IMG/VR virus record: IMGVR_UViG_3300035661_000187
Coordinates: 1-35,565 of that record
DNA: 35,565 nucleotides
DNA from: a virus
Reading direction: 5' to 3' (one strand)
Of this stretch, positions 2,387-31,900 are shown piece by piece (within the stretch, counting starts at the first letter, position 1; each line of letters opens with the position of its first letter). Below the pieces are notes generated by a model, which saw only the letters and a program-made list of their open reading frames with translations, searched no databases and was not told where the DNA came from. Position numbers and translations under genes: made by a program.

Positions 2387-2396
2387 ACTATACCCG
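2387..2396 (-). promoter_or_regulatory. GGTATAGT promoter-like motif before the appendage operon
   Basis: Reading leftward, the minus strand has CGGGTATAGT. The hexamer TATAGT lies at 2392-2387, 6 nt before the ATG at 2380. There is no recognisable -35 hexamer and no ribosome-binding site between motif and start. It matches the motif family seen before several other minus-strand genes. Confidence 0.65.
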
Positions 2397-2409
2397 CCGA
2401 CCCCGAACC

Positions 2410-2583
2410 TCACTGCACGCGCTTCAGGGCATCCCTCCGAGCATTGTCCAGGGCTGCAAGGTCCGGTAGAGGGGTGATGACCAGCTCGGGATGTTTCCCT
2501 TGAGCTGCTTCAACAAGGCGGCCACCGAGAGAGAAGAGCCCGTCCAAGAACTTCAAGAGCGTCATCACATCGGAGAGGCTCAC
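2410..2583 (-). CDS. Small protein at the end of the lysis-like cassette
   Basis: A 57-residue protein starting with GTG and overlapping the preceding lipoprotein stop as GTGA. It is predicted to be mainly helical (MSLSDVMTLLKFLDGLF at the N-terminus). The middle is hydrophobic but too short and charged to be a convincing membrane segment. It is the last of four genes joined by four-base overlaps, which implies translational coupling. I recognise no family. The overlap, the open frame and the absence of another gene in this gap support it being real. Confidence 0.6.
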   Translation of the reverse strand: MSLSDVMTLLKFLDGLFSLGGRLVEAAQGKHPELVITPLPDLAALDNARRDALKRVQ

Positions 2584-2942
2584 TTGATGTCTCCCATCGC
2601 TTCCTTCAGAACCGAGAAGCTGTCCCCGAGTTGACGGGCAGCATCTTCAACCTGAGCTTCTGTTGCTGTCCCCGCCTTCTCAGCCTGGAGAACATTCACC
2701 ATGACGCCCCAAGACAGCTTCACGGCAAGGTAGGAAGCCCTGGCAGGGAGGCAGAGCTTGTCCGCTGCGTCGACTTCCTTGACGCTCTGGGCTGCCTCAT
2801 AGCGAGGAATGCAGAAGGACTCGATGGCGTCGTGCTCGACCGAGGCGACGTCTCTTGTGGTGTTCGCTGAGAGGACGGCCCGGTCCTGAGCTGTCAGAGA
2901 GCAGCCGGCTAGGACGAGGGGGAATAGGATGTGTAGCTTCAC
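2580..2942 (-). CDS. Lipoprotein, candidate outer-membrane spanin or lysis accessory
   Basis: A 120-residue protein with a short signal (MKLHILFPLVLAGCSL). The lipobox LAGC puts the lipidated Cys at about residue 14, so the mature protein should be anchored to a membrane from the periplasmic side. The rest is alpha-helical with two further Cys residues near the middle. The GTG at 2942 is chosen because GAGGAG lies 5 nt upstream and it overlaps the previous stop as GTGA; earlier in-frame starts would break the signal peptide. Directly downstream of a one-TM protein, it resembles the i-spanin/o-spanin arrangement, but it is not proline-rich like Rz1. Confidence 0.75.
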   Translation of the reverse strand: MKLHILFPLVLAGCSLTAQDRAVLSANTTRDVASVEHDAIESFCIPRYEAAQSVKEVDAADKLCLPARASYLAVKLSWGVMVNVLQAEKAGTATEAQVEDAARQLGDSFSVLKEAMGDIK

Positions 2943-3115
2943 TTGGACTCCTCTTCGTTCTTCTTGGTACGACGCTCTTCGCGCCACCTCTGGATCTCCC
3001 CAACCCCGAGCTGGGCGATCCCCTGAGCCATGGCAACAAGCGCAGCGGTGAGCACGGCAAGGCCGATGCCCCTCGCCTCTTCCCTGGAGATGTTCGTCCC
3101 GAAGTCGTTGTTCAC
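2939..3115 (-). CDS. Small one-TM protein, candidate holin or inner-membrane spanin
   Basis: A 58-residue protein from a GTG start. It has a short polar N-terminus, one hydrophobic segment at about residues 16-38 (GIGLAVLTAALVAMAQGI) and a highly charged C-terminus (RWREERRTKKNEEESK). It shares GTGA overlaps with both neighbours, so it is embedded in a coupled chain. A single membrane span with a charged helical tail next to a lipoprotein is typical of phage lysis genes (small holins or Rz-like proteins). Which of these it is cannot be told from sequence alone. Confidence 0.72.
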   Translation of the reverse strand: MNNDFGTNISREEARGIGLAVLTAALVAMAQGIAQLGVGEIQRWREERRTKKNEEESK

Positions 3116-3297
3116 TTGGAAGTCTCCTGAGTAGGGCGGAACTTGACGATCAACATGGTCTCCCCCTTGTAGTCGAATTTCTCTCCCACAAGGATTTGGA
3201 TCTTTTCATCCCGAATCTCGGAGACGATGCCCGCAAGGATGAGTCCCACAATCTTCGGGTCGAGATTTGTTGGGGTGACACTTCTAGAAGCAGCCAT
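3112..3297 (-). CDS. Short hypothetical protein, first gene of the lysis-like cassette
   Basis: A 61-residue protein, MAASRSVTPTNLDPKIVG at the N-terminus, with a central Ile/Leu-rich stretch (IVGLILAGIVSEI) and a C-terminal part that reads like a small beta barrel (GEKFDYKGETMLIVKFRP). There is no signal peptide. The ATG at 3297 has TAGAGT 5 nt upstream and no Shine-Dalgarno sequence, so the transcript is probably leaderless. Its stop overlaps the next start. The function is unknown. Confidence 0.65.
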   Translation of the reverse strand: MAASRSVTPTNLDPKIVGLILAGIVSEIRDEKIQILVGEKFDYKGETMLIVKFRPTQETSK

Positions 3298-3314
3298 GGT
3301 ATACTCTACCGTGG
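3294..3314. promoter_or_regulatory. Divergent overlapping promoters in an inverted repeat
   Basis: The 21 bp read CCATGGTA-TACTC-TACCGTGG, an inverted repeat with 8-bp arms and one mismatch. On the plus strand GG-TATACT (3298-3305) can serve the gene at 3329, which has a normal ribosome site. On the minus strand GG-TAGAGT (3310-3303) lies 5 nt before the ATG at 3297. The two -10 elements overlap, so firing in one direction should exclude the other, and the symmetry would also suit a dimeric regulator. Confidence 0.55.
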
Positions 3315-3328
3315 AAAGGAGAATGATG

Positions 3329-3505
3329 ATGGATTTCGCGCAGAAATTGTATGAAATGTATGTCGAGGTTCAGACGGAGGTCGTGCCCTCGGGACCGACG
3401 CCGAAGAGCTGGCGGGAGCTTTCCGAGAACGAACAGAAGATGTGGGCCCTCTTCGGGGACCGCATCATCCGTATGTTCCCCAACAACCCGCCCGACCTTG
3501 GCTGA
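3329..3505 (+). CDS. Small hypothetical protein of the plus-strand island
   Basis: A 58-residue acidic/aromatic protein (MDFAQKLYEMYVEVQTEVV at the N-terminus) with a PKSWRELSENEQKMWALFGD segment that looks like a short helical domain. Three in-frame ATGs occur at 3323, 3326 and 3329. The last is best placed behind AAAGGAG (7-nt spacing). It runs opposite to all its structural neighbours and is followed after 3 bases by the membrane protein at 3509, forming a two-gene unit. The function is unknown. Its position in a late block on the opposite strand is typical of a moron. Confidence 0.68.
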   Translation: MDFAQKLYEMYVEVQTEVVPSGPTPKSWRELSENEQKMWALFGDRIIRMFPNNPPDLG

Positions 3506-3508
3506 TCG

Positions 3509-4084
3509 GTGACGGCCATTCTTGTCTTGAATGGCATCGTGGCCCTCTGTTGCCTGTTCTGCGGGCTTCGGAGGGCTTCGTTGTTCTTGGCTGTAGGTTT
3601 GGCTAGCGACCTTCTCAGACCCCTCTTCCGGGGCATGAGAGATGGATACGTGAAGCCTTATGTGGGTGTGGGCTTCGCTCTCTGGCTCCCCGACGTCGCT
3701 CTCATGGTGGCCATCCCCGCGGTCCTCTTGGGACTCGTGAGTCGTTGGACCACTGGAGTTGCCTTTGGTGTCTTGAGCTTCGTCTTCGTCGCGTGGAGCT
3801 ACCCTGCCTTGAGAGGCGAGTCTCTTCTACACTTCTACGAAGCGATCTACCTGGCAGCCTATCTTGTGTGCGCCCTCCTCATCTTCTGGAGAAGTACGAC
3901 AAGAAAGCTCAACCCCCAGGAAGGACTTCTCCTTCTCTACGGACTACTGGGGGTTGTGGGGGTGATCTTGGTAGTCAAGTTTGGGGTGGGTGATTGGAGA
4001 TCCGTTCTGATACCAAACGGAGCTGCGTATCTAGCAACTCTTGTTGTTGCTGTTCTAGCAGCCTGTCGGCCTCGTACCACCTAG
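3509..4084 (+). CDS. Polytopic membrane protein in a plus-strand island
   Basis: A 191-residue protein from a GTG start with about six hydrophobic segments, including residues ~3-18, 50-72, 78-96, 110-125, 138-158 and 168-187. Arg/Lys-rich turns lie between them (GLRR, RSTTRK, CRPRTT). It has no signal peptide or enzyme motif. It directly follows the small gene at 3329. Its last 110 bases overlap convergently with the minus-strand gene at 3975-4205. It could be a holin, a superinfection-exclusion protein or another membrane moron. None of these can be favoured from sequence. Confidence 0.7.
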   Translation: MTAILVLNGIVALCCLFCGLRRASLFLAVGLASDLLRPLFRGMRDGYVKPYVGVGFALWLPDVALMVAIPAVLLGLVSRWTTGVAFGVLSFVFVAWSYPALRGESLLHFYEAIYLAAYLVCALLIFWRSTTRKLNPQEGLLLLYGLLGVVGVILVVKFGVGDWRSVLIPNGAAYLATLVVAVLAACRPRTT

Positions 4085-5747: not shown

Positions 5748-5757
5748 ACCATACCAG
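5748..5757 (-). promoter_or_regulatory. GGTATGGT promoter-like motif before the fibre gene
   Basis: The minus strand reads CTGGTATGGT. The hexamer TATGGT at 5753-5748 lies 5 nt before the ATG at 5742, with no Shine-Dalgarno sequence between. It is a one-base variant of the TATAGT motif with the same preceding GG. Confidence 0.6.
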
Positions 5758-6497: not shown

Positions 6498-7411
6498 TGA
6501 GGTCCCTTCCAGTAGCGAGCTTGTGCGAAGCGGGTAGCAACCCAGGCGCCCCCAACCACTTTACCATGGTTGCCCCATGTCCCATCGGGCATGTTGGCAG
6601 CCGGGTAGGGTCCTGGAGTGAGCGGGTTGAAGGCTGTGGGGTCAAAGTTGATGATGATGTGGGGGACAAGGACTCCCGCGGGCTTACACTCAGAAACCAC
6701 CCCGCGAACCTGTTCGACATACGGCAGTGTTGCCGTAGTACCCACGGTCATATCGGGATCTCCGTAGTAGCTCGTACCATCCCCAAGAGTCCCCTCGTTG
6801 GCATTCAAGGGGACCGCAGCCGGGGCGTCAATGATGATCCAGATCCGGAAAGGGTCGGCCACATACCCTTGGCACAGGCTGTCCCAGTCCCAAGGGTGAG
6901 TGACACCCGTGTCCAAAGTTGTCGTCCCATCAGGATGAAGGACGAACCCCGTACCTGTACGGTTTTGGACTCGGAACGTGCCGTCTGTCTCGAAGGTGTA
7001 CCAAACACCTTGTGCGGTGACGATCTTCAACCGCACATTACTCGGAGCCGTTGCAGCTCGAATCAGACGGAGAAGGCCACGGGCCGTACCTGCACGGCGC
7101 CACGCAGCTCTCCAGCTACGAAGCCGACGAGCATAGGCCGTGTTCGTCTCAGCGAAGCCTTGAGGCAACCTACGGTCACGGCCGATGTAGGGCAGAGCGT
7201 CGACAGAAGAATACCCCCCAAGCTCAGGGACAGTGTCCACCTGACCCGGGAAGCTCGCCTTCCGACCCTCGTAGACGCCATCGATCATGGTGTCGAAAAC
7301 CAGGGCGATGGTGTTGAGGAGCCCGACCCAATGACTACGGCTCGGGTCCTTCATCCACCCAGGGAGCAGGTCCTCCATCTTCGCGATCAGGTTGGTAACC
7401 CCGTTGCTCAC
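6494..7411 (-). CDS. Baseplate protein, Mu gp48 / tail protein I position
   Basis: A 305-residue protein. The N-terminal half is helical and Arg/Trp-rich (RRLRSWRAAWRRAGTARGLL near residues 90-110), as in the baseplate proteins that follow gpJ in many contractile phages. The C-terminal half is beta-rich and ends in a short aromatic tail (ARYWKGPQ). It overlaps baseplate J by four bases at its start and the next gene by four at its end. The assignment rests on gene order (J followed by gp48/I) and size. Its likely role is in the outer baseplate, joining J-type wedges to fibres. Confidence 0.78.
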   Translation of the reverse strand: MSNGVTNLIAKMEDLLPGWMKDPSRSHWVGLLNTIALVFDTMIDGVYEGRKASFPGQVDTVPELGGYSSVDALPYIGRDRRLPQGFAETNTAYARRLRSWRAAWRRAGTARGLLRLIRAATAPSNVRLKIVTAQGVWYTFETDGTFRVQNRTGTGFVLHPDGTTTLDTGVTHPWDWDSLCQGYVADPFRIWIIIDAPAAVPLNANEGTLGDGTSYYGDPDMTVGTTATLPYVEQVRGVVSECKPAGVLVPHIIINFDPTAFNPLTPGPYPAANMPDGTWGNHGKVVGGAWVATRFAQARYWKGPQ

Positions 7412-9019: not shown

Positions 9020-9029
9020 ACTATACCGC
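9020..9029 (-). promoter_or_regulatory. GGTATAGT motif before the baseplate wedge gene
   Basis: The minus strand reads GCGGTATAGT. TATAGT at 9025-9020 is 5 nt before the GTG start at 9014. The intervening TCCTC cannot serve as a ribosome site, so transcription beginning about 6 nt downstream of the hexamer would start at the GTG itself. Confidence 0.68.
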
Positions 9030-12570: not shown

Positions 12571-13280
12571 TTACTGCTCCTGTTCCTGTTGTTGCGGCCT
12601 GTTAAGCCCTCTGACCAACCACGCTGCTAGTTGAAGCATCGAGGCGTGGGCGCGGTCGTTGTACTTGTGCTTCTCAGGAAGCAGCCAACTCCCTAGCAAC
12701 TCCGCCGTGAGACCCACATCGCCCATGGCGTCAGTTGCTAGGGACAGCCTTTTTTTGCGGTATCCTCACGGATACCCGCAATCAGAGACTCACGAGCCAC
12801 GTACAGGAACACGTCGATGCGGGGCCACTTCTCCACCCACGTCAAGAACTCTTCCTTGGAAGGGTAGATGACCGTCTCCAGGATGCTGTCCCGACCGGCC
12901 ACCATCTTCTCACGGACATCCGTCAGGCCCTCTTGACGGGCCCCGAACTCGTCCGACTCCACAAGCGTCATGGGGCGAAGGATGATCGACCCCTCTTCGC
13001 AGAAGACACGAGCGACCCGCTTGGCCCCGCCGTACTGAATGAGAGCCTTTCGGAAAGCCTCATCCGCAACCAGCTCCTTGGCCGCACGCTCCGCTTCCTT
13101 CTTCTTCTCTGCCAGCTCGGCCTTCTTCTCCGCGAGCACGTTGACCGGGCTGAGGCGCTCCGCCTCACGCTTGGCCTCTGCCAGCTCGGTCTTGCCCGTC
13201 TCCTCTGCAATGGATGCCTCCAGGGCAGCAAAGTCAGCCTTCTGTGCTTCGGTCCAGGTGCTTGTATCGATGGTCGTCAT
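12571..13280 (-). CDS. Tail assembly chaperone, -1 frameshifted long form
   Basis: A 236-residue product made when ribosomes reading from the ATG at 13280 slip back one base on A-AAA-AAA at 12756-12750. Residues 1-177 are shared with the short form. The new frame adds 59 residues beginning RLSLATDAMGDVG and ending in a Gln/Glu-rich tail (RPQQQEQEQ), with TAA at 12571-12573, three bases before the tape measure GTG. The extension has no start or ribosome site of its own and is open throughout. This is the lambda gpG-GT / Mu gp41-41' arrangement. The protein loads tube subunits onto the tape measure. Confidence 0.87.
12738..13280 (-). CDS. Tail assembly chaperone, short form (zero frame)
   Basis: A 180-residue protein terminating at TAG shortly after the slippery run. 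It is highly charged and helical in the N-terminal half (EAKREAERLSPVNVLAEKKA and onwards). The second half is more globular and contains YPSKEEFLTWVEKWPRIDVF. It has a Shine-Dalgarno sequence (AAGGGAT) upstream of ATG. It lies between the tube and tape measure genes, the universal position for this chaperone. The last three zero-frame residues after the slip (GCP) are replaced in the long form. Confidence 0.88.
   Translation of the reverse strand: MTTIDTSTWTEAQKADFAALEASIAEETGKTELAEAKREAERLSPVNVLAEKKAELAEKKKEAERAAKELVADEAFRKALIQYGGAKRVARVFCEEGSIILRPMTLVESDEFGARQEGLTDVREKMVAGRDSILETVIYPSKEEFLTWVEKWPRIDVFLYVARESLIAGIREDTAKKGCP
12750..12777 (-). other. Programmed -1 frameshift site with abutting upstream hairpin
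   Basis: On the minus strand the zero-frame codons GCA AAA AAA GGC contain the slippery heptamer A-AAA-AAA, which allows both tRNA-Lys to re-pair one base back. Immediately upstream a hairpin can form: GCGGGTATCC-GTGA-GGATACCGC, a 9-bp stem with one bulged G ending right at the A run. Frameshift stimulators normally lie downstream of the slip site, so an upstream stem is unusual. The geometry (hairpin followed by A7) is not that of a terminator. Confidence 0.75.
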
Positions 13281-13301
13281 TGTTCATCCCTTGAAAGTGA
13301 A

Positions 13302-13338
13302 AACCCTGTCGATCACCATACCAGCGATCGACAGGGTT
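13302..13338 (-). terminator. Terminator-like hairpin whose loop carries GGTATGGT
   Basis: Perfect 13-bp arms (AACCCTGTCGATC / GATCGACAGGGTT) flank an 11-base loop, and on the minus strand a short T run follows (GGGTTTTC). It lies 27 bases after the tail tube stop, so it could stop or attenuate that transcript. The loop reads GCTGGTATGGT on the minus strand, matching the phage promoter motif, about 30 nt before the chaperone ATG. The same 37 bases may therefore end one transcript and begin the next. Confidence 0.6.
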
Positions 13339-13365
13339 CGTTGCCCCAGAACGGGACGGGTGGGA

Positions 13366-13834: not shown

Positions 13835-15625
13835 TCAAACGGCCTGCTGCTGAAGGGCAGCGAGCTTCGGGTTCACGTAGCTGATATCGCCCGTCATCGA
13901 GTCGATATATGCGAGACCCGTCAACGCAACGGTGGAAGAGAGGCTCCCCCCGTTGGTCAAGGGCGTGTCGGTGCGGGAGACCGTGGCCTGGACATCCGAG
14001 GCCATGCCCGTCTTCACGACACCATCGTAGAGCGCGGACTCCATCTCCCGCTCGATCCGACGGCAATCCTCTTCCCGAACGGATCCGGGTAGAGCGTTGT
14101 CCGGGTTGCCAGCCGCGTTGACGGCGAGACCCTCTTCGAGCTGGTTCTCCAGGACGACCCGGTAGATCCCCGAAGCGATGTCCATGATCCGACGCTGGGC
14201 AATGCGGCTGAAATCCGCAAAGGCGTAGAACATGTTCCCACGGGTCACGAAGACGCCAGCCTGGTCCTTGTAGGTCCGGTGCGTCAGGAAGCGTGCATTG
14301 TGAAGCGTCTCGTCGAATCGAGCATCGTGCTCGACCAAGAGGTTGTTGTCATCGTGCAGCCTGACATCACTGGTGAGAGCACCCGTTGCCTTGCGGCCCG
14401 GATCTTCCTGGACAGGACGGCTCAAGAGACGAGCAATCGTGGCCCACATGACCGAGCGACGGTTGGACCTGCCCGTGATCGGACAAGTGATCCGCTCCAT
14501 GCCGCCCGCGATGGCGATACGGTCGTCCGCCGTCCCAGCATACTGAGCTGCCAGCCGAGCGGTGAAGAAGACGTGGTTCTCAGAAGAACCCCAGTCACGA
14601 GCCGAGAGGCACGCGAAAGAGTACGTTCCCGCGTTTTCGAGCGAGGTGAACTTGGCGCCGATGGCTCCGGCCATCGAGGGAGAAGTCTCCCCAACGATGT
14701 GGACGAAGCTCCAGGCCAACGAGCCCTTGTCCAGCTCCGTGAGGGCCGTGATGACGTCCGCAGCCTGGTAGCCAGGGGCAGTCGTCTTGAAGGTCACGAC
14801 GTCGCCCGTGTCGAGCGTACCCGCCGCGAACGAAAGCGTCAGACCCGAGGCAATCGTTCCATCGAGGATGTTGAAGGACGTAGACGTTCCGAGGCCCAAT
14901 ACGTCCGTGAACGTGGCCCCACCATCGAGGCTGTAGCGGTAGGTTATGCCGCTGACTCCAATGGTGCCCCCGAAAACCACCTCGAAGCGAACCTCGTAGG
15001 CGTCAATGGGAGTAGCCCCCGTCTCCGTGATGACCGAGGTCGACGCCCCCACCCGAGTTGTCGTCAGGGGGAGAACCGAAGCGCTCGCGGGAGTCGTGTA
15101 GAAGCTGTAGGTGTTGGTTGCGATGAGCGTACCCGCCGCGAAGTTCAGGGTGAGACCCGTACCCGCGAGGACGAGGGTCGTTGCCGTACCCAGCGCCGTT
15201 GCAACACCCGTGGTGGTTCCGCCGTCCAGAGACAGCGTGTAGAAGCAGCCCGCGGTGCCAATGGTCCCGCCCGTGGTCACAGTGAAGACCACGTCAAAGC
15301 CATCGGTGGGCGTACCCGTGACGGTGACGACCGAAGTCCCAGCGCCCGACTTGTCGACCGCCGACTTGGTTGCAGCCACAGCCACCGAAGGAATCCGGAT
15401 GCCGATGACCGGAGCGCCCGTCTGAGCGCAGGGGTAGGCCGAAGCCTTGGGCATGAGGCCACCACCGAACGTGGTCGGGATCGACAGTGGGGAACTGAAC
15501 TGAATGGGCGTGTTGAAGGGGCCGGACGTCGCGGGCCCGATGACGACGTGGATCGTGTTGGGGGGCGCGGCGATGATGCCGAGACCGCCCTTCACCACGG
15601 TCAGTGTTGCCTTGGGAATGGACAT
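13835..15625 (-). CDS. Contractile tail sheath protein, DUF2586/Mu L-like
   Basis: A 596-residue protein. Residues 1-90 form the N-terminal part that links neighbouring subunits (MSIPKATLTVVKGGLGIIAA). Residues ~94-180 and ~190-285 are two copies of a beta domain with GTIG...YSLDGG...LTLSFAAGTL. From ~285 the conserved sheath core continues, with a C-terminus containing DVQATVSRTDTPLTNGGSL and YIDSMTGDISYVNPKLAAL. It starts behind AAAAGGAG. The TATAGT motif lies 21 nt upstream. It is longer than Mu L (495), and the extra length fits the inserted domains, which would decorate the outside of the tail. Confidence 0.92.
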   Translation of the reverse strand: MSIPKATLTVVKGGLGIIAAPPNTIHVVIGPATSGPFNTPIQFSSPLSIPTTFGGGLMPKASAYPCAQTGAPVIGIRIPSVAVAATKSAVDKSGAGTSVVTVTGTPTDGFDVVFTVTTGGTIGTAGCFYTLSLDGGTTTGVATALGTATTLVLAGTGLTLNFAAGTLIATNTYSFYTTPASASVLPLTTTRVGASTSVITETGATPIDAYEVRFEVVFGGTIGVSGITYRYSLDGGATFTDVLGLGTSTSFNILDGTIASGLTLSFAAGTLDTGDVVTFKTTAPGYQAADVITALTELDKGSLAWSFVHIVGETSPSMAGAIGAKFTSLENAGTYSFACLSARDWGSSENHVFFTARLAAQYAGTADDRIAIAGGMERITCPITGRSNRRSVMWATIARLLSRPVQEDPGRKATGALTSDVRLHDDNNLLVEHDARFDETLHNARFLTHRTYKDQAGVFVTRGNMFYAFADFSRIAQRRIMDIASGIYRVVLENQLEEGLAVNAAGNPDNALPGSVREEDCRRIEREMESALYDGVVKTGMASDVQATVSRTDTPLTNGGSLSSTVALTGLAYIDSMTGDISYVNPKLAALQQQAV

Positions 15626-15646: not shown

Positions 15647-15656
15647 ACTATACCGC
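15647..15656 (-). promoter_or_regulatory. GGTATAGT motif before sheath gene
   Basis: The minus strand reads GCGGTATAGT, with TATAGT at 15652-15647. Here 21 nt separate it from the ATG and a clear AAAAGGAG ribosome site lies between, so this promoter would yield a normal short leader, unlike the leaderless sites. That a strong ribosome site is kept for a very abundant protein is sensible. Confidence 0.7.
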
Positions 15657-17327: not shown

Positions 17328-17336
17328 ACTATACTC
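17328..17336 (-). promoter_or_regulatory. TATAGT promoter-like motif before the connector gene
   Basis: The minus strand reads GAGTATAGT. TATAGT at 17333-17328 is 5 nt before the GTG at 17322. The preceding pair is AG rather than the usual GG. A terminator-like hairpin lies 12 nt upstream. Confidence 0.6.
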
Positions 17337-17347: not shown

Positions 17348-17381
17348 GAGCCCCTCTCCCGGGATGTTAGGAGAGGGGCTC
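17348..17381 (-). terminator. Hairpin between capsid and connector genes
   Basis: A perfect 12-bp stem (GAGCCCCTCTCC / GGAGAGGGGCTC) with a 10-base loop lies just downstream of the major capsid stop on the minus strand. It is followed by a weak T-rich stretch (ATCCCTTTG) rather than a clean T run. It could attenuate the abundant capsid message or protect its 3' end. The next promoter motif begins 12 bases later. Confidence 0.55.
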
Positions 17382-20045: not shown

Positions 20046-21634
20046 GTGGCCTCTTCATGTGTGACGGGGGCTTCGATAGGCTTCCATTTGATTCCCCAAG
20101 AGTGCTCGCCACCCTTCTTCTTCGGGGGAATGAGGACCCGCTCTCGCTCGATCCCACACTTCCGACAGATGTTGCTCGACCCATGCTCACAGCGAGGGAT
20201 CGAATACTGTGTCATCATCTCAGCAAGAGAGGCCGCCGCGTTGGGCATCAGGGGAAGCTCGTCATCCGAGGTGTTCGTTGTCTGTTGCTCAGGAGCCGGA
20301 TCAGCCGGATCAGCCGGATCAGCCGGATCAGCCGGAGCTTTTGCAGGCTCCACAACTGGCGCGGGAGCCGGATTCGGAATCTCTTCCACATCAACCCCAA
20401 AACGAATGGCGATGGTTTTTGCCTGGCACTGATACCCATGAGGCTTCAGGGCTGCGTCCGCCTTTGCAAGGCCATCCCCAAGAGCACCAATGGTGACAGC
20501 TTGTGCCTGATGGTCCGCGGGTGGGGTGACATCCCATCCCATCTCGGGAGACTCCTCAAGAGCATCCCCACCAAAGCGACGGTTCACCCAAGGCGGGATC
20601 CCCTGCGTGTTGAGGGTGTAGGCGAGGGAGTCTCCCGTCGCCTGAATGAGGTCGGCTCGAATCGTCTTGTGAAGCTCACCCGAGGAGAAGCCGCTCGTCC
20701 CATTGGTGGACACAAGCTGTCCAGCAATACAGATGATGATCTCCTCGTTCGCCTCAGCGATGATCGCCTGGAAGCACTCGAAGCCCCGACCATTCGACTC
20801 CAAGAGCTTGGCGTCCCATCCGTCAGGAAGGGCGAAGACCGTGTTGAGGCCCCAGTTCTTGAGCGCTGTGAGGAGGCCCTTGCGTTGGACTTCCGTCGAG
20901 CCAGGCTTTGAGAAGGCAAGACGCGCCGGGTTGGCCAGCGTAGCCGCGTAGGCTTGCCGGGACATGAAGGCGTGGTCCTTCGCTACATACGAGCGAGCCA
21001 GGGGCATCCAAAGCCCATGGGTCCACGGCTCATCCTCACCCCCAGGAAGATGCAAGATCCACTCACCATCTCCAGGTGTGATCTTGATGGCGCCACCATA
21101 GGCCATGTACCACCAAGCGTTGTCATTCACCCTGTACTGAAGGTAGTAGGGGTCGAGACGTCGGAAGATGGTGTCGACCTTCCCCGTGGGGTCAGGGACC
21201 ATTTGCCCGACGCCAACGCCGAGAAGGATGCCGTCTGCCGCAATCTTGGCCAGCTCGGCGATGGGGAACTTCTGGGCGAAGACACCCTTCGTGGTGCCGT
21301 CTCCAGCAAGCTCACGAGCCATGTCCTCGCGACCTGTGATCTGGATCGGAAGACGGACCAAGCCATCGGTCCGAGTCGACAGGACACCCCTTGTCTTGCC
21401 ATCCCTGACGATGGCCCGTGCGAACTGCGCCGCGAGTTGAAGGTTCCCGTTGCCGGCTTCGTGGATCGCGTCCTCGATGTCGCTGAGTAGGAATCGAGTG
21501 ATCGTCTGAGGCGGGGGAGCAAGACGTCCCCCGAACATCTTCTTCTTCTTTTTGACGGGTGCCGTTACAACGGGAACCGGGGCGTACCCAAAGAGGGACG
21601 CCACTCGGTTAACTGTAGTGCTTAGACGTCCCAT
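20042..21634 (-). CDS. Portal protein, DUF935/Mu gp29-like
   Basis: A 530-residue protein. Its core (ARAIVRDGKTRGVLSTRTDG and then PYYLQYRVNDNAWWYMAYGG; NEEIIICIAGQLVSTNGTSG) matches Mu-type DUF935 portals. Near residues 435-450 is a four-fold DPA repeat. The C-terminal tail has a Cys/His set (C482, H484, C490, C493) that could bind zinc, plus basic residues, which are unusual for this family. TAGAGT lies 8 nt before the ATG without a ribosome site. The portal forms the dodecameric DNA gate at one vertex and docks TerL. Confidence 0.9.
   Translation of the reverse strand: MGRLSTTVNRVASLFGYAPVPVVTAPVKKKKKMFGGRLAPPPQTITRFLLSDIEDAIHEAGNGNLQLAAQFARAIVRDGKTRGVLSTRTDGLVRLPIQITGREDMARELAGDGTTKGVFAQKFPIAELAKIAADGILLGVGVGQMVPDPTGKVDTIFRRLDPYYLQYRVNDNAWWYMAYGGAIKITPGDGEWILHLPGGEDEPWTHGLWMPLARSYVAKDHAFMSRQAYAATLANPARLAFSKPGSTEVQRKGLLTALKNWGLNTVFALPDGWDAKLLESNGRGFECFQAIIAEANEEIIICIAGQLVSTNGTSGFSSGELHKTIRADLIQATGDSLAYTLNTQGIPPWVNRRFGGDALEESPEMGWDVTPPADHQAQAVTIGALGDGLAKADAALKPHGYQCQAKTIAIRFGVDVEEIPNPAPAPVVEPAKAPADPADPADPADPAPEQQTTNTSDDELPLMPNAAASLAEMMTQYSIPRCEHGSSNICRKCGIERERVLIPPKKKGGEHSWGIKWKPIEAPVTHEEAT
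20295..20336 (-). repeat. Four tandem 9-bp repeats in the portal gene
   Basis: The plus strand carries GGATCAGCC four times in tandem with a partial fifth, encoding repeated Asp-Pro-Ala on the minus strand. Identical repeats at the DNA level suggest recent slipped-strand expansion in a linker just before the Cys/His tail. Confidence 0.85.
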
Positions 21635-21642: not shown

Positions 21643-21651
21643 ACTCTACCG
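21643..21651 (-). promoter_or_regulatory. GGTAGAGT motif before the portal gene
   Basis: The minus strand reads CGGTAGAGT across the TerL stop codon (TAG at 21648-21646). The hexamer TAGAGT lies 8 nt before the portal ATG at 21634, with no good Shine-Dalgarno sequence between. It is a variant of the TATAGT motif. Confidence 0.5.
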
Positions 21652-23346
21652 TCGACCCATGGATCGATATGGGTCGTGCTGCATTGGTATAGAGAGCATT
21701 CCAGACTCTTCGTCCGTGTAGTCCCCAGCGAGGTCTTCATCTTCACGGTCGTTCCTCTTGATCCAGTTGGTCGGGTCGAGGCTTCCACATCGCCAGAGGG
21801 ACAGGGTCAGGGCGGAGACGCTGTCACAGTGGCCGCCGGACATGGCGATCCCCATGTCCGAGACTTTCCGACGCGGAGCTGAAATCTGTGTCCTGCCCCC
21901 AGACAGTCTCTTGCCCACAATCGAGAGGAGCTGCTCTGCAACGTTCTCCCGCTCGGTCTCTTCAAGAGAGCCGAGGGCGAGACGTCCTTCCACCAAGAGA
22001 GTCCTGACGCCGTCGTAGACACGGTCTTTGGCCGCAGCGTTCACGAAGGCTATCCCTCGGGTGTCGAGGACTTCACGGAAGGTGGCCGCGTAGTGGTTGT
22101 CAGCGCCCACGGACTGGCAGCCGTGGGCATTCAACGTCGTGGCGAAGGTTTCGTAGGTCGCGGACGGCTTCTGGTCTGGCCCTGAAGGAATCTCCAGGGC
22201 CAGATGAAGAGCGAACTTTCCGTCTGCATACCTGGCAGCGATGCTGAGGGCCGAGAAGTCGTGCCCGTGACCAAGGTCGGCCCCAGCTCCAAACTCTTGA
22301 ACGCGAGTCTCAGGAGCCATCCGGATACAAGCCGCAGCGACAGCATCGGCGGGGAAGTAGCTCGATGTCCCACGGGGGAACGGGATAGCGAGGATCTCTC
22401 GGTCCGCGTTCAGGTTCCCACCCGGACGGGCTCGTTCTGCCCTCTCAATCGCGTGGTCGGGATCCCATGTCGGGTTGAGCATCCTCGTGCCGACTCGGGC
22501 AGCGACGAGAGCGTTGGTGTGCTTCCCCCAGTCCGTCGTGATGAGGTTTTCGAGGACGCCTTCACCTTCTACGTTGGGCGTCGAGACGAGCCAAATCTGG
22601 GCGCCAGGGACAAGACGAGGACGAGCAGCGGCGCAGATATCCTCATCGTTGACCGCAGACCCAGCCCCAGAAAGGAAGCACGCTTCGTCGACCCCACAGA
22701 AGACCAGCGACTTGGACCGGGCCGACTGCCCACCCTTGTCCGCCACAATCACCTGAATGTCGACGAGGATGCCATCCGGACGTCGCAGGGTGAGGCTTTC
22801 CCCCGTAGGTTCACCGACAAGAGCGGACCTCAGGATGGGGCTCGCCTCGATGTAGCCCTTGACCATCGAGAAGCACTGCTTGGCCAACCTCCGCTTGGGG
22901 GCGATGATGATAGAGGCGGGATGTTCACCAGGGGTGGTCTGTTGGGCATTTGGGTAGCGTGGGTCGATAGGAGCCCCGGGGAGCCGTAGAGGCACCGTCC
23001 ATGCGGCGTGAATCGCTTTCGGGGCCATGAAGCGGCTGGTCTTGCCTCCACGACCGCCGGCCGAGATTGCGACTTCACGTCGGGGTTCTCGGGGCAGCTT
23101 GTCCAGTCCGCAGTTGAAGACCTGCTTGCAGAGCAAGTCGGCGATGGTCGTGACAGGAAGACCTTCCGAGGCATCGGCGATGGCTGCCACGATGGGCGAG
23201 AGAGCCAGGTTGATGAAGTCGGGGCTTTCAAGGAAGACACGGAAGCTGCATCGACCTGCAAAGTCGAGCTTGTCCTGTGCCTCTTGTGCCTCCATGTGCG
23301 CGAGGAGCTTGCCAGCCTGAGTGACCGGCTTCTTCTTGGGAGGCAC
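21646..23346 (-). CDS. terL: Terminase large subunit (TerL)
   Basis: A 566-residue protein. The ATPase half has a Walker A-like GGRGGKT (~97-103), a Walker B strand VFCGVDE (~215-221) and the coupling motif STPN (~255-258). The nuclease half has acidic metal ligands in GADLGHGHD (~355-363) and GADNH (~414-418), with a further Asp in GGHCDS near the C-terminus. It begins with GTG overlapping the upstream stop. It packages DNA into the head through the portal encoded next. It resembles Mu gp28 in length and order but is not paired with any transposition genes. Confidence 0.94.
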   Translation of the reverse strand: MPPKKKPVTQAGKLLAHMEAQEAQDKLDFAGRCSFRVFLESPDFINLALSPIVAAIADASEGLPVTTIADLLCKQVFNCGLDKLPREPRREVAISAGGRGGKTSRFMAPKAIHAAWTVPLRLPGAPIDPRYPNAQQTTPGEHPASIIIAPKRRLAKQCFSMVKGYIEASPILRSALVGEPTGESLTLRRPDGILVDIQVIVADKGGQSARSKSLVFCGVDEACFLSGAGSAVNDEDICAAARPRLVPGAQIWLVSTPNVEGEGVLENLITTDWGKHTNALVAARVGTRMLNPTWDPDHAIERAERARPGGNLNADREILAIPFPRGTSSYFPADAVAAACIRMAPETRVQEFGAGADLGHGHDFSALSIAARYADGKFALHLALEIPSGPDQKPSATYETFATTLNAHGCQSVGADNHYAATFREVLDTRGIAFVNAAAKDRVYDGVRTLLVEGRLALGSLEETERENVAEQLLSIVGKRLSGGRTQISAPRRKVSDMGIAMSGGHCDSVSALTLSLWRCGSLDPTNWIKRNDREDEDLAGDYTDEESGMLSIPMQHDPYRSMGRR

Positions 23347-24083
23347 TACTTCTTCTCCAGATCCTTGAGGACCGCCTTGACGAGATCCCAGGCTTTCGGC
23401 TCAGGCTTCAAGGCCGCCGTCAGCAGGATGATGAACTTCTGGAACTTGGCTGACTCAGCAATCCGAGCTTCCTGATCAGCTCCGGTCTCACCAAGAAGCC
23501 GCGCTAGATGTTCGTTGGCCTTGGTGGACGCTTGGACCGCCTGGGAGTGGGCTCGGGTGTCCGGCTTCTTCGAGGCATTGATGACGCCCTGGTAGCTTGA
23601 CTCCGCGATGAGGGTGGCCCTCTCCAGGGCAGACATCGGGATGGCGTTCGGGTCTTTCAGTGCCACGGTGTCGGCCGCGGTAGCCAGCAAGGTGGGAGAG
23701 CATGTCCGAGCGTGACGGCGAGCCTCCCCGGGCTTCAAGCCGTGGTCCTTCTCGATGGTGATGTAAGGAGTGCTCGTCAGAATCGCCGTCTCGATCGACT
23801 TCCTCTTGGTCGAGACGCAGATGAGGCACGGGCTGTGGACCGGGGCGGGGTCCACGAAAGCATCCTTGGGGACCGCTGGGGCGTCCTCGGGAAGAGGAGC
23901 TGGACCGCTTGCCAGGGCATGTAGGACCGGCCCTGGGTTCGTCAGACCATCGTGTTGATGCAGATGCCTCAACATCGAAGTCTTCGGAATCGCGAACGCT
24001 CGGGCCACGGCGCTGATAGAGGCCCCGTGGACCTTCAGGGCAGCGGCAATCTCTTCTCGATGGTCACAGGCTTTGCAATACAC
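23346..24083 (-). CDS. Probable small terminase with duplicated zinc/HTH modules
   Basis: A 245-residue protein immediately before TerL, with overlapping ends. It carries two related modules. In the first, C3-x2-C6 is followed by a helix-turn-helix-like stretch (ISAVARAFAIPKTSMLRHLH) and H40-x3-H44. In the second, C86-x2-C89 is followed by a similar stretch and H124-x3-C128. Both look like zinc-stabilised DNA-binding units. The C-terminus is helical (AKFQKFIILLTAALKPEPKA). A small terminase recognises the packaging site and recruits TerL. It starts with GTG, 5 nt after TATAGT, with no ribosome site. A transcription regulator is the alternative. Confidence 0.75.
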   Translation of the reverse strand: MYCKACDHREEIAAALKVHGASISAVARAFAIPKTSMLRHLHQHDGLTNPGPVLHALASGPAPLPEDAPAVPKDAFVDPAPVHSPCLICVSTKRKSIETAILTSTPYITIEKDHGLKPGEARRHARTCSPTLLATAADTVALKDPNAIPMSALERATLIAESSYQGVINASKKPDTRAHSQAVQASTKANEHLARLLGETGADQEARIAESAKFQKFIILLTAALKPEPKAWDLVKAVLKDLEKK

Positions 24084-24088: not shown

Positions 24089-24098
24089 ACTATACCGG
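24089..24098 (-). promoter_or_regulatory. GGTATAGT motif before the small terminase gene
   Basis: The minus strand reads CCGGTATAGT. TATAGT at 24094-24089 is exactly 5 nt before the GTG at 24083, separated by TCTTC. It is the best-matching example of the leaderless arrangement and lies in the intergenic space after the sigma-like gene. Confidence 0.68.
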
Positions 24099-24135: not shown

Positions 24136-24705
24136 TCAGTTCAACACCCCCTCGCCATCACGAATGTTGGCTCGGTCGAGTGGACGTGTCTTGTCGATCC
24201 GGAAGCTGGTCTCGACATGGATCCAGGCGGCGATGGGATCATGGTCGTCAACGATGGTCGAGCGTGCTCCGACCCGTTGGTTCCGGTTCCACCTACGCTG
24301 CTTCAGAAGCGCTGTCCTGAGAACGTTGGAAGCAATCAGGAAGACGTAGTGACTGAAGCTGCTCTTCTTCGGGTCGAACGCGCTCGGGGTGCCGTTCTTC
24401 TTCAGGATCGCCAAGACGACGTCTTGCATCAGATCCTCAGCATCGAGCTTGGAAGAGTACAGGTGCGAGCCAACGATCTTCCGGATGTCGTTGTACTTCG
24501 CCCTGACGTCGATCCCAAGCCTCGCGACCTCTTGCCGGGCAAGGGCGCCTACCTCACCTTCTTGGGGGAGGCATTCGAGGATCGCCCAGAAGCTCAGAGC
24601 GATGGCCAACTCCTCATCCGTGGCACGCCTACTCGCTCTCGCCCGACGCCAACGACGATCCAGGTTGTGCTTCTCAGAATTTGACCGTCGAATTGGTGTA
24701 CCCAT
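24136..24705 (-). CDS. Sigma-70 region 2-like protein lacking region 4
   Basis: A 189-residue protein. DAEDLMQDVVLAILKK (~88-103) fits sigma region 2.2, which binds the RNA polymerase clamp. FSHYVFLIASNVLRTALLKQ (~117-136) fits regions 2.3-2.4, which melt and read the -10 element. The following ~50 residues (STIVDDHDPIAAWIHVETS and on) have no helix-turn-helix resembling region 4. The N-terminus is very basic. It begins 5 nt after TATGTT without a ribosome site. It could redirect host polymerase to promoters with a -10 but no -35, like those seen in this genome. Alternatively it is a terminase-associated DNA-binding protein. Confidence 0.72.
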   Translation of the reverse strand: MGTPIRRSNSEKHNLDRRWRRARASRRATDEELAIALSFWAILECLPQEGEVGALARQEVARLGIDVRAKYNDIRKIVGSHLYSSKLDAEDLMQDVVLAILKKNGTPSAFDPKKSSFSHYVFLIASNVLRTALLKQRRWNRNQRVGARSTIVDDHDPIAAWIHVETSFRIDKTRPLDRANIRDGEGVLN

Positions 24706-24821: not shown

Positions 24822-25283
24822 TCAGGGGGCCGGGGGGATGCAGCACTGGACGCCAAGAGGGGCGTTGTCATTGGGGGTGACGAGCGAGTAGCACAGCCAA
24901 TGATTGGGGAGGCCCGGGGGATGGCAGACATACGGCATCGAGGACTTGAGGAAGACGCCGCAGAAGGCCGTGAGATCCGACTCGGGGAAGAACCCCACGT
25001 CTTCCGGGTTGGTCACGGGAATACAGTAGCCCGCGTCGGGGTCAGGTCCCGGGTCGGCTCCCCCTGCTCCTGTGCTGGACGAGCTTGAGGAGCTTCCTGA
25101 AGAGGAAGCTGTAGCTCCCCCAACACCTTCTTGTCCGCCCGTACCAGAGGATACGCTGGACGAAGACGAGCTGGACATTGCTGACGATGATCCCGAAGTG
25201 CTCCCCGAGGCAGGGTTGACCGTCTCGGGGTCGCAGCACGCGGAGGCATACAACACGATGGCGATGAGGGAGAGCTTCTTCAT
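24822..25283 (-). CDS. Lipoprotein with Ser/Gly-rich linker and Cys-rich domain
   Basis: A 153-residue protein. Residues 1-15 are a signal (MKKLSLIAIVLYASACC) with the lipidated Cys at about residue 16. A long Ser/Gly/Thr linker (~25-75) follows. A C-terminal domain with the spacing C-x20-C-x11-C-x10-C-x15-CC is related to the protein at 25864. The ATG at 25283 overlaps the stop of the upstream TM gene (ATGA). Such Ser/Gly linkers are common in Myxococcota lipoproteins. It probably displays a disulfide-stabilised domain in the envelope. A superinfection-exclusion role is possible but speculative. Confidence 0.75.
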   Translation of the reverse strand: MKKLSLIAIVLYASACCDPETVNPASGSTSGSSSAMSSSSSSSVSSGTGGQEGVGGATASSSGSSSSSSSTGAGGADPGPDPDAGYCIPVTNPEDVGFFPESDLTAFCGVFLKSSMPYVCHPPGLPNHWLCYSLVTPNDNAPLGVQCCIPPAP

Positions 25284-25863: not shown

Positions 25864-26208
25864 TCAGAAGTTGCAGGGCATCCCGCCGTTGAAGCAACAG
25901 CAGTAGAGCGCCTGGGTGCCCCCATCCTCTGAGGGGAAGGGCGCGTAGGGGAGCGGCTGGCATTCTCCGTGAGGAGGGGCGTAGGGAGCCCCCTCGGACA
26001 GCTCACAGAGGAAGGGCAGCGTGTGCTCTGCCAGGGTGTTGCAGTCCTTCACCTGGGATTCCTGCCAGGGCTGAGAGGCGAAGCACGGCCCCACCGTGGG
26101 CTCGGGGACGTCGCCCGATGATGCCCCCGCTGCCGCCTGTGGCTCCGGGTTCTCCAAGCCGCAGCCCGAGACGAGGACGAGGGAAAGAATGGAGAGAATC
26201 TTCTTCAT
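25864..26208 (-). CDS. Second lipoprotein, Cys-rich, related to 24822-25283
   Basis: A 114-residue protein with signal MKKILSILSLVLVSGCG (lipobox VSGC, lipidated Cys ~16). A short Ala/Ser/Pro linker is followed by a Cys-rich domain (C-x13-C-x11-C-x14-C-x19-CCC). The LPFLC segment matches the MPYVC of the other lipoprotein, so the two are paralogs with different linkers. The start at 26208 is chosen because it begins the signal peptide; an extension to 26268 does not fit. It is the first gene of the four-gene minus-strand unit. Confidence 0.75.
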   Translation of the reverse strand: MKKILSILSLVLVSGCGLENPEPQAAAGASSGDVPEPTVGPCFASQPWQESQVKDCNTLAEHTLPFLCELSEGAPYAPPHGECQPLPYAPFPSEDGGTQALYCCCFNGGMPCNF

Positions 26209-26375: not shown

Positions 26376-26680
26376 GTGTAGGGACAGTGTAGGGTCTGAC
26401 GCCGACCCTACACTAACGAAAGGCTTCAAAACAAGCCCTTTGAGAGGTCGAGTGTAGGGAGTGTAGGGTCTGGGGGAAACTAACCTCCCAAGGGGTGAAA
26501 ATCGGAGGACTGGACAGGCTTTCAGTCCTCCGATTTTTCGCCCGCGTAGAGTTTGTTTCAAAGAACCCTACACTCCCTACATTCTGATCCGGAAATGCCT
26601 ATTTTTGAAGGACTTGCGTAGTGTAGGGTCCCAGCACAACCCTACACAACCCTACACTATGTGGGGCTCCTTCCCTACAC
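26376..26680. repeat. Eleven iteron-like 9-mers, GTGTAGGG(T/A)
   Basis: Forward copies begin at 26376, 26387, 26452, 26461 and 26621. Reverse copies begin at 26405, 26565, 26574 (ends in T rather than C), 26639, 26649 and 26672. Pairs at 26452/26461 and 26565/26574 are placed as mirror images with 9-10 bp spacing. This is one helical turn per site, which favours cooperative binding by a dimeric protein such as the ribbon-helix-helix proteins encoded on both sides, or by the replication initiator. Confidence 0.85.
26498..26537. repeat. 15-bp hairpin at the centre of the iteron field
   Basis: A perfect stem (AAAATCGGAGGACTG / CAGTCCTCCGATTTT) with a 10-base loop, centred at about 26517.5. The mirror-image iteron pairs are centred at 26517, so the hairpin is the symmetry axis of the field. 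It is followed by a T run and so could also act as a terminator, but the symmetry suggests a role at the origin. Confidence 0.75.
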
Positions 26681-29902: not shown

Positions 29903-29914
29903 GGAGGACCCGTG

Positions 29915-30151
29915 ATGACCGACGAAGAGTTCAGCCGACAGGTTGACGCAGCTCTTGACGCGAAGAGAATCGCAGCGGACGAACACCGGATCGCTCTCCA
30001 CAAGATGGCACTTGAGGTGGACGCCCACATGCAGAGGAAAGCCTGGGACAACTACCAGGCCAACAAGAGGCAAAGAGAACGAAGAGAGGAGATCGAGACG
30101 AATACACTTCTCGACAGGATCCTCGAAGAAGTCCTGAATAAGCTGGGGTGA
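29915..30151 (+). CDS. Small coiled-coil protein
   Basis: A 78-residue protein, nearly all helical and charged (MTDEEFSRQVDAALDAKRIA and NYQANKRQRERREEIETNTL), probably a coiled coil. It starts 7 nt after GGAGG. It is co-directional with the primase-helicase and ends directly at a strong terminator. It could be a helicase accessory or nucleic acid-binding protein. No motif is recognised. Confidence 0.72.
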   Translation: MTDEEFSRQVDAALDAKRIAADEHRIALHKMALEVDAHMQRKAWDNYQANKRQRERREEIETNTLLDRILEEVLNKLG

Positions 30152-30200
30152 GAGAAGGGCGGGGTCTGAAAAGACTACCGCCCTTCTCTTTTTCGTTTTA
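30152..30200 (+). terminator. Rho-independent terminator after the replication genes
   Basis: A 12-bp stem (AGAGAAGGGCGG / CCGCCCTTCTCT) encloses an inner GTCT-GAAA-AGAC hairpin and is followed by TTTTTCGTTTT. It begins directly at the stop codon of the gene at 29915 and separates replication genes from the downstream small-gene cluster. Confidence 0.92.
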
Positions 30201-30213
30201 TCACTCATGTTTC

Positions 30214-30223
30214 CGGTATAGTG
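30214..30223 (+). promoter_or_regulatory. GGTATAGT motif before the small-gene cluster
   Basis: The plus strand reads CCGGTATAGT, with TATAGT at 30218-30223. It lies between the terminator and the gene at 30268, which has its own GGAG ribosome site, so the transcript would have a leader of about 40 nt. No -35 hexamer is visible upstream. Confidence 0.6.
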
Positions 30224-30651: not shown

Positions 30652-31037
30652 TGCGCCCCCTACCCGATGGGACACACAGCGCCATGGAGACCTACAACTT
30701 CGTCCGCCCCTCCAGCGTCTCCTACGATATCGTCCACCAAGAGACGTTCACACCGATGAACAGCTCGTCCTTTTCGGACCTGACCCCAAGGGACACACCC
30801 TCTTCGGCAAGCCCCACAGGATTCAACCGTACACCTCCCCCAAATTCCAGCACGTACAGGAACACCTTCATTCAGGCTGACTTCACTCTTATGCCTCGCG
30901 GGCTGAGGGTCGACGAGAGGGAGAGGGAGTGGGCCCGTCGCTTCCAAGAGACCTTGACGAGAACCTTCTCCGATGAACTCGCCCACACGAATTACGGGAT
31001 GAGTCTCGACAGGATGCTCAAGTCCCCGAGGAGTTGA
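30636..31037 (+). CDS. Hypothetical protein
   Basis: A 133-residue protein. The N-terminal two-thirds are Ser/Thr/Pro-rich (SPTGFNRTPPPNSSTY) and probably poorly structured. The last 45 residues are helical and charged (RVDEREREWARRFQETLTRT). It starts inside the preceding gene behind a GGGGG-type ribosome site; a second start at 30651 is possible. Similar Asn-Pro-Gly/Ser segments appear in its neighbour, which hints at a shared origin. No function is recognised. Confidence 0.65.
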   Translation: MHISVMRPLPDGTHSAMETYNFVRPSSVSYDIVHQETFTPMNSSSFSDLTPRDTPSSASPTGFNRTPPPNSSTYRNTFIQADFTLMPRGLRVDEREREWARRFQETLTRTFSDELAHTNYGMSLDRMLKSPRS

Positions 31038-31042
31038 AGAAG

Positions 31043-31132
31043 ATGATCGACTTCAAGCCGGTCACGTCGGGCGGTGTTGGTGCGACCCCCAACCCTACAT
31101 CCTGGGAAGCAATCCTCAACGACGATATTTGA
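31043..31132 (+). CDS. 29-residue peptide with PTxWExILND motif
   Basis: MIDFKPVTSGGVGATPNPTS is followed by WEAILNDDI. It starts at an ATG 5 bases after the upstream stop, behind GAGGAG. Its end PTSWEAILND closely matches the C-terminus of the next protein (PTAWEVILND). That similarity, along with a ribosome site, is the case for it being a real tiny gene or a relic. Short size keeps confidence moderate. Confidence 0.5.
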   Translation: MIDFKPVTSGGVGATPNPTSWEAILNDDI

Positions 31133-31134
31133 TC

Positions 31135-31434
31135 GTGTGCAACTCGAACATCGATAGGCCCCACGTTGGCCGCTACCTGTTCCACGACGGCACATGCTGG
31201 GACCGGGTCAAGAGGGAGTTCATCCTCTTGGACTACAACACCCCGGGCTACCTGCATCGCTACAGGACGTCGTTCTTCCTTCCCTTCGAGAAGTCCGAGA
31301 ACCTCAAGTGGGACTCCAGTCTCCAGTTGATTCTCAGCTACCGCCAGTGGGCCAAGATCGAGGCGGCGATTGCAAGGGACTTCGCACCACCCGTATACCC
31401 AACAGCTTGGGAAGTGATCCTCAACGACACCTGA
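31135..31434 (+). CDS. Hypothetical protein with C-terminal PTAWEVILND
   Basis: A 99-residue protein from the GTG at 31135 (a TTG at 31129 overlapping the upstream stop is the alternative). It is aromatic-rich, with Tyr, Phe and Trp throughout (GRYLFHDGTCWDRVKREFIL), and shows no membrane segment. It ends in the PTxWExILND motif shared with the 29-residue peptide. There is no clear ribosome site, and translational coupling to the upstream stop is likely. The function is unknown. Confidence 0.65.
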   Translation: MCNSNIDRPHVGRYLFHDGTCWDRVKREFILLDYNTPGYLHRYRTSFFLPFEKSENLKWDSSLQLILSYRQWAKIEAAIARDFAPPVYPTAWEVILNDT

Positions 31435-31440
31435 GAGACG

Positions 31441-31845
31441 ATGACGATGACGAAAAAAGAAATCACTCCTGACGTCCTGGCAGAAAGGAATGCACGTAGA
31501 CTCGCTCGGCAGAAGGCATACAACGCATCCCCCCAAGGGAAAGAGGTGATGTCTGCCTACAAGAAGAGCGGGAAGTCCAAGGCCACCCGAGACGCCTGGA
31601 GAGCCAAGCACGAAGAGAAGATCCCCTACGAAAGGAAACCCAAGAGGAAGGCGAAGAGGGAAAAGACCGAGAAGGAGAAGGAGTACAACAAGAAGTACGA
31701 CAAGAGCCCCCAAAGGGTTGCGTATGAAAACTCGGAGGAAAGGAAGGCAGCGAAAGCCCTTTACGTCCGAATGAAATACTGGGGGGTCAGTGATCCCGCG
31801 GACCTACCCCCAAAAAAGGGTGAGAAATCCTCCGACCCGTCCTGA
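31441..31845 (+). CDS. Highly basic protein
   Basis: A 134-residue Lys/Arg-rich protein (for example RKPKRKAKREKTEKEKEYN) with a C-terminal part containing ALYVRMKYWGVSDPADLP. It starts 3 bases after the previous stop region, at ATG ACG ATG (31441 or 31447). Basic, helical composition suggests a nucleic acid-binding role. The YxxKYxxS-like pattern resembles linkers found next to phage endonucleases, but I see no nuclease motif. It lies directly before the palindrome at 31859. Confidence 0.68.
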   Translation: MTMTKKEITPDVLAERNARRLARQKAYNASPQGKEVMSAYKKSGKSKATRDAWRAKHEEKIPYERKPKRKAKREKTEKEKEYNKKYDKSPQRVAYENSEERKAAKALYVRMKYWGVSDPADLPPKKGEKSSDPS

Positions 31846-31858
31846 TCTTCTCCTCCGT

Positions 31859-31900
31859 CTCGGTATAGTGATAATGTTTCTATATTCTTACTATACCGAG
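31859..31900. promoter_or_regulatory. Palindrome carrying facing GGTATAGT motifs
   Basis: Perfect 11-bp arms, CTCGGTATAGT and ACTATACCGAG, flank a 20-base AT-rich centre. Each arm contains the phage -10-like motif, one per strand and pointing inwards. The plus-strand one would drive the genes from 31940 on. It could be a two-way promoter, an operator for a dimer, or an RNA hairpin. Confidence 0.65.

Follow-up and report, generated by a model that had tools for sequence, protein, structure and literature searches.

A conserved promoter-like element close to the start codons of presumed late genes in an uncultured Mu-like phage, and a candidate region-2-only sigma factor to read it

How are the structural genes of a small phage expressed when the same short signal lies, gene after gene, only a few nucleotides ahead of a start codon that has no Shine-Dalgarno sequence? 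This question is raised by the uncultured tailed phage in IMG/VR record IMGVR_UViG_3300035661_000187 (G000), which was analysed over its whole length of 35,565 nt, hereafter the window. A sequence-only reading of this DNA had described the signal, a hexamer mostly preceded by GG, as a genome-wide promoter family that has no -35 box and often gives leaderless messages. The genome carries an exact direct terminal repeat of 127 bp (positions 1-127 and 35439-35565), from which we conclude that it is complete and circularly mapping, with 35,438 bp. It encodes a Mu-like contractile-tail morphogenesis set, comprising the portal (Portal_Mu), a Mu-like protease, a DUF2586 sheath, a baseplate wedge, a tape measure protein and a terminase, together with a D5-type primase-helicase as replication protein.

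The 8-letter signal GGTATAGT occurs seven times in the window, against 0.12 copies expected (Poisson P ~6e-11). All sites named by the sequence-only reading were found in the orientation given, and the gene-facing sites number 11, with the forms GGTATAGT, GGTATGGT and GGTAGAGT, plus a single AGTATAGT (Table 1). At 17328-17335 (AGTATAGT) only the G at -13 is kept of the GG ahead of the hexamer. A motif ending 4-8 nt upstream was found at 7 of the 46 gene starts, while 5000 random shifts of the starts gave a mean of 0.12 and a maximum of 3. At these seven close sites the motif ends 5-8 nt before the start codon, and the individual spacings agree with those reported earlier: 5 nt at 3297, 5742, 9014, 17322 and 24083, 6 nt at 2380 and 8 nt at 21634. 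The remaining four sites lie 21-70 nt before the start codon, with a Shine-Dalgarno sequence in each leader; two of them, at 15625 (21 nt) and 13280 (34 nt), had already been described as preceding a normal leader. Both plus-strand sites are present, at 30215 and 31862, but the gene behind the latter starts at 31940. It opens a cassette whose last gene is endolysin-like (32975-33535). Further matches inside genes, such as GGTAGAGT at 19716 within the protease gene, were taken as chance occurrences.

The genes preceded by the motif are structural, packaging, lysis and other apparently late genes. The motif is not placed before the early-type genes at 24.1-27 kb, nor before the primase, so that the description "genome-wide" was too broad.

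A consensus built from 21 sites, the 11 of the window and 10 of its closest relative (see below), reads cGGTAnrG(T/C). The bases G-14 (20 of 21 sites), G-13, T-12, A-11 and G-8 are near-fixed, and C is found at -15 in 17 of the 21 sites. Position -7 is T at all window sites, while in the relative it is T at eight and C at two of the ten sites. Only the columns at -15, -14, -13, -12, -11, -9, -8 and -7 exceeded 99.9% of the null distribution. The absence of a -35 box, as proposed by the sequence-only reading, was borne out by this test, which showed no element near -35, and neither TTGAC nor GGAAC fitted the sequence upstream of the 21 sites better than shuffled sequence. Nor do these sites show the extended -10 form TGn (T-15 G-14).

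Proximity to the start codon goes together with the absence of a ribosome-binding site. When Shine-Dalgarno sequences were counted on the DNA, regardless of the start site of transcription, they were found in one of the seven close-motif genes versus 18 of 22 other genes of the late region (P 0.003). This mutual exclusion of close motif and Shine-Dalgarno sequence strongly supports the leaderless starts put forward earlier. Where the spacing is 5 nt, as at five sites, transcription beginning 6 nt past the element would have the first base of the start codon as its 5' end. Because the motif lies so near the start codon, most late mRNAs are predicted to be leaderless, which, judging from this arrangement of the DNA, we consider likely.

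The closest relative is a syntenic IMG/VR contig of 32.4 kb (L014, genome G001), whose sheath and terminase are 72% and 65% identical to those of the window. Eight window genes that carry the motif have an orthologue in G001, and all eight keep a variant of it at the same place, while 14 of 15 motif-free genes are without it there (P 1.8e-5); among 1000 shuffled patterns of equal composition, none matched more than four genes in both genomes. Both leadered window genes with G001 orthologues are leadered in G001 as well, and G001 has two extra sites, before 4770 and before an endolysin-like gene at 6627. Enrichment in related phages, by which the sequence-only reading had proposed to judge its motif, was therefore seen as conservation in one close relative and did not extend further. 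The motif was not enriched beside starts in relatives with 40-47% portal identity, nor in Meiothermus, Thermus, Myxococcus and Sorangium phages or prophages. As these more distant relatives do not show it, the motif appears confined to the small group of the window and G001.

Three sites (13322, 17335 and 30215) lie within or just past intrinsic-terminator hairpins, and there they would look like promoters restarting transcription between late units. A leftward mirror-image copy of GGTATAGT, overlooked by the sequence-only reading and without a gene to serve, faces the plus-strand site at 31862; the two motifs form part of a perfect 11-bp inverted repeat at 31859-31900 (CTCGGTATAGT / ACTATACCGAG, arms 20 bp apart), which could act as an operator or form a hairpin in RNA.

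Table 1 Features of the window and corresponding sites in the closest relative, G001.
Feature	Position	Strand	Remarks
Promoter motif GGTATAGT	24089..24096	-	5 nt before GTG 24083, TerS-like gene 23346-24083
Promoter motif GGTAGAGT	21643..21650	-	8 nt before ATG 21634, portal gene
Promoter motif AGTATAGT	17328..17335	-	5 nt before GTG 17322, head-tail adaptor gene; just past terminator hairpin
Promoter motif GGTATAGT	15647..15654	-	21 nt before ATG 15625, tail sheath gene; Shine-Dalgarno AAGGAG
Promoter motif GGTATGGT	13315..13322	-	34 nt before ATG 13280; Shine-Dalgarno AAGG; within terminator-hairpin loop/upper stem
Promoter motif GGTATAGT	9020..9027	-	5 nt before GTG 9014
Promoter motif GGTATGGT	5748..5755	-	5 nt before ATG 5742
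Promoter motif GGTAGAGT	3303..3310	-	5 nt before ATG 3297; G001 orthologue not found
Promoter motif GGTATAGT	2387..2394	-	6 nt before ATG 2380
Promoter motif GGTATAGT	30215..30222	+	45 nt before ATG 30268; Shine-Dalgarno GGAG
Promoter motif GGTATAGT	31862..31869	+	70 nt before ATG 31940; Shine-Dalgarno AGGAGG
Mirror-image GGTATAGT	31890..31897	-	Leftward copy, no gene to serve; inverted repeat with 31859-31869
Sigma-70 family protein P0001, 189 amino acids, region 2 only	24136..24705	-	Candidate reader of the promoters
Terminator-like hairpin, 13-bp stem	17348..17381	-	Directly upstream of 17328 promoter; stretch folded at -34.1 kcal/mol, z -4.5
Intrinsic-terminator hairpin, 17-bp stem, then UUUU	13301..13339	-	Encloses promoter motif; -28.8 kcal/mol, z -5.4
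Intrinsic terminator, GAGAAGGGCGG stem, U tail	30152..30188	+	Between gene 29912-30151 and 30215 promoter
GGTACGGT-4-ATG	G001 7642		Orthologue of window 24083 gene
GGTACGGT-6-ATG	G001 10112		Orthologue of window 21634 portal gene
GGTATAGC-5-ATG	G001 14503		Orthologue of window 17322 head-tail adaptor gene
GGTAGAGT + AAAGGAGA leader	G001 16199		Orthologue of window 15625 sheath gene
GGTATGGT	G001 18524		Orthologue of window 13280 gene
GGTACAGT-5-ATG	G001 22730		Orthologue of window 9014 gene
GGTAACGT-4-ATG	G001 25992		Orthologue of window 5742 gene
GGTATAGC-5-ATG	G001 27167		Orthologue of window 2380 gene

We regard it as practically certain that the motif is real and conserved. The reading of it as a promoter, first made from the sequence alone, is upheld by its invariant orientation, its placement after terminators, its fixed distance to start codons without Shine-Dalgarno sequences, the leaders found exactly where a Shine-Dalgarno sequence exists and its conservation at 8 of 8 orthologues, and we consider it very likely. 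We accordingly take the sites as a conserved family of late promoters, most of whose mRNAs should be leaderless.

The best candidate for the protein that reads these promoters, also not noticed earlier, is P0001. No late motif precedes its gene, which ends 40 bp ahead of the first late promoter. The protein matches Pfam Sigma70_r2 (PF04542) over residues 71-138 with 33.1 bits (cut-off 24), while region 4 (PF04545, PF08281) was not found in it at E<=10, nor is one encoded anywhere in the complete genome. Its best PHROG is phrog_1740, RNA polymerase sigma factor (E 9.9e-7), in a partial match of residues 68-148 to positions 63-138 of the 567 of the profile. As gp36 of phage phiEco32 matches this profile at 1.9e-45, phrog_1740 represents the gp36 family, although the direct BLASTP match between P0001 and gp36 is very weak (E 0.25).

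Relatives of P0001 are scarce: a single-sequence search of viral contigs retrieved none, and the jumbo phage LR745208 (485 kb; L013 1773-2507) encodes a 244-amino-acid relative with 26% overall identity, which has an apparent region-4-like C-terminus without a Pfam match. Searching with P0001 and this relative together returned only the same jumbo phage. Matches in Myxococcota were rejected as kin, being ordinary ECF sigmas with region 4. In a related phage, G008, whose portal is 44% identical, a sigma-70 family protein complete with both region 2 and region 4 (L134 825-1688) is encoded between a TerS-like gene and the portal, where the window/G001 group has the terminase; a phage sigma heading the late genes therefore occurs at least twice in the wider group. 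A phage-encoded polymerase was discarded as reader, since the proteins scanned gave no polymerase match and the sole open reading frame of that size (916 amino acids) is the primase.

These elements can be joined in a single model. The sigma encoded at 24136-24705 would be made from an early promoter, bind the host RNA polymerase core and direct it to the late sites, where cGGTAnrG(T/C) would serve as the single -10-like element of the phage late promoters; a -35 box would not be needed because this sigma is without region 4. Transcription would begin ~6 nt downstream of the element, so that at seven late genes it would start on or within ~3 nt of the start codon and yield a leaderless mRNA, and at the four other genes upstream of a normal Shine-Dalgarno leader. 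As architecture, gene arrangement and the form of the promoters all fit, we favour this model and somewhat lean towards the phage region-2 sigma as the reader of the promoters. For the full picture, in which such a sigma reads a single 8-bp element and starts on the start codon, structural proteins come mostly from leaderless mRNAs and promoters in terminator loops separate the late units, we see about even chances.

Several observations weigh against the phage sigma as reader. The main one is that G001 has the promoters but neither a sigma region 2 or region 4 nor a phrog_1740 protein could be recognised in it; G001 is a linear contig without a terminal repeat, so that a part of it may be missing. 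It is also the only close relative that came up when portal, sheath, terminase and baseplate proteins were used as queries. An AlphaFold model of P0001 from two sequences was too poor (predicted local distance difference test, pLDDT, 48), Foldseek returned nothing, and neither was used. Furthermore, the sigma gene itself appears to start 5 nt past a TATGTT and without a Shine-Dalgarno sequence. Finally, a TANNNT ~11-12 bp before the start, to which all window sites conform in their core near the start codon, is a leaderless signal in Actinobacteria, Deinococcus-Thermus and some delta-proteobacteria (PMC3160421).

The last two points, together with the first, lead to the possible, though less probable, explanation that the principal sigma of a commonly leaderless host reads the sites as a -10 element (TANNNT) with an upstream GG, the phage sigma serving otherwise. 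Besides the promoters of G001 without a recognisable sigma, TATGTT precedes the start by 5-7 nt at two early-type genes without Shine-Dalgarno sequences, at 24705 (sigma) and 25283 (lipoprotein), so that the host polymerase may also make leaderless mRNAs. Position -7 is normally the best-kept base of a housekeeping -10 element. Here G-14, G-13, T-12, A-11 and G-8 are fixed, yet -7 is C at the two G001 sites mentioned above. Neither does the element conform to a TG extended -10, given the C at -15, and the sites avoid the early-type genes. The pattern with 5-nt spacing showed no enrichment relative to its reversed form, used as control, among 296 Actinomycetota and 113 Myxococcota genomes, a sample that may not include the host's group, and it is thus no general promoter in the sampled genomes of these phyla.

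It is improbable that the motif is an activator site overlapping the -10 element, bound by a different regulator from phage or host, an activator or anti-repressor comparable to Mu C or P2 Ogr, that recruits host polymerase. In favour of this, the phage resembles Mu in its morphogenesis genes, the activator C serves the late genes of Mu (PMC4461284), and one pair of motifs forms the perfect inverted repeat at 31859-31900. However, 10 of the 11 gene-facing sites are single asymmetric copies that have no second half-site, their distance to the start codon suits a -10 element rather than an upstream activator site, and no Mor/C or Ogr homologue was reported among the proteins scanned. Hardly credible is an action in RNA, as an unusual ribosome-recruiting or stabilising signal instead of a promoter. 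The near-fixed 5-8 nt between seven copies and start codons lacking Shine-Dalgarno sequences would suit it, but in leadered genes the motif is untied from the start codon (21-70 nt away at 13280, 15625, 30268 and 31940, with the Shine-Dalgarno sequence between), and three sites lie in or just past terminators, where a promoter is needed.

Regarding the rest of the genome, the first 24 kb of the window had no near match among 50,697 phage records. Distant relatives infect Meiothermus, Thermus and Myxococcus, and portal relatives were found in an Actinomycetota metagenome-assembled genome, a Polyangiaceae metagenome-assembled genome and Sorangium. Terminase relatives in Myxococcota genomes were dismissed as close kin, the terminase being all that they have in common with the window. 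The minus-strand genes 24822-25283 and 25864-26208 are small and lipoprotein-like with Cys-rich ends, and one of the two has long Ser/Gly linkers resembling those of Myxococcota lipoproteins. A Myxococcota host suggested by such Ser/Gly-rich lipoproteins was not retained, as the search for relatives came back empty: the 25864-26208 product had none in the 141 Myxococcota genomes searched. Upstream of the primase gene, a large non-coding stretch carries GTGTAGGG ten times at 26376-26680 (0.47 expected) in direct and inverted orientation, a cluster that looks like replication-origin iterons or an operator cluster. A repeat spaced 66 bp is present in three copies at 33991-34163, within the minus-strand gene 33834-34553, whose product is a low-complexity Ala/Ser/Thr/Gly protein.

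Each ingredient of the favoured model has a precedent, namely phage sigmas with region 2 only, late promoters made of a single element and, as in phiYS40, late phage mRNAs without leaders, and our literature search returned no described case joining the three. If true, the model would link minimal phage sigmas reading -10-only promoters with leaderless translation, two subjects usually described apart, and the position of the promoter alone would decide if a gene is translated from a leadered or a leaderless message. It would also offer a compact system, of one 189-amino-acid protein and one 8-bp element, to probe the minimal sigma for promoter-specific initiation, and a group of uncultured phages whose late regulon can be predicted.

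Among known systems, phiEco32 gp36 is likewise a phage sigma with region 2 and without region 4, from the family that is P0001's best PHROG. Its middle and late promoters consist of one conserved ~9-bp block at the -10 position, the element tAATGTAtA. Transcription starts 6-8 bp past this element, and the lack of a -35 box has been attributed to the absent region 4 (PMC8948821). Phage ECF-type sigmas can also use an extended -10 element, which is contacted by the stretch directly following domain 2, without a -35 box (PMC5333181). The window differs from phiEco32, a C3 podovirus, in its consensus (cGGTAnrGT), in being a small Mu-like contractile-tail phage and in its late mRNAs, which are mostly predicted to be leaderless; no gp79-type host shut-off protein turned up in it, although no search was aimed at one.

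The T4 late sigma gp55 has 185 amino acids, and the T4 late promoter consensus is TATAAATA. As proposed for the window, a very small domain-2 sigma (PMC2988020) reads -10-only late promoters in T4, but the consensus differs from the window motif, and both a sigma-4 mimic, gp33, and the sliding clamp gp45 are required there. No gp33- or gp45-like candidate turned up in the window, where sequence tools could miss a diverged one.

Compared with the TANNNT leaderless genes (PMC3160421), the window shares the core ~11-12 bp before the start, the lack of a Shine-Dalgarno sequence and the predicted lack of a leader. Its motif differs in the fixed GG at -14/-13 and G-8, in a last T that may be C, and in being confined to a phage late-gene set without enrichment in the sampled host genomes. 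The large Thermus phage phiYS40 differs in that no region-2-only sigma is described in the part of its account considered here, and resembles the prediction for the window in that its later mRNAs are mostly leaderless (PMC3594737).

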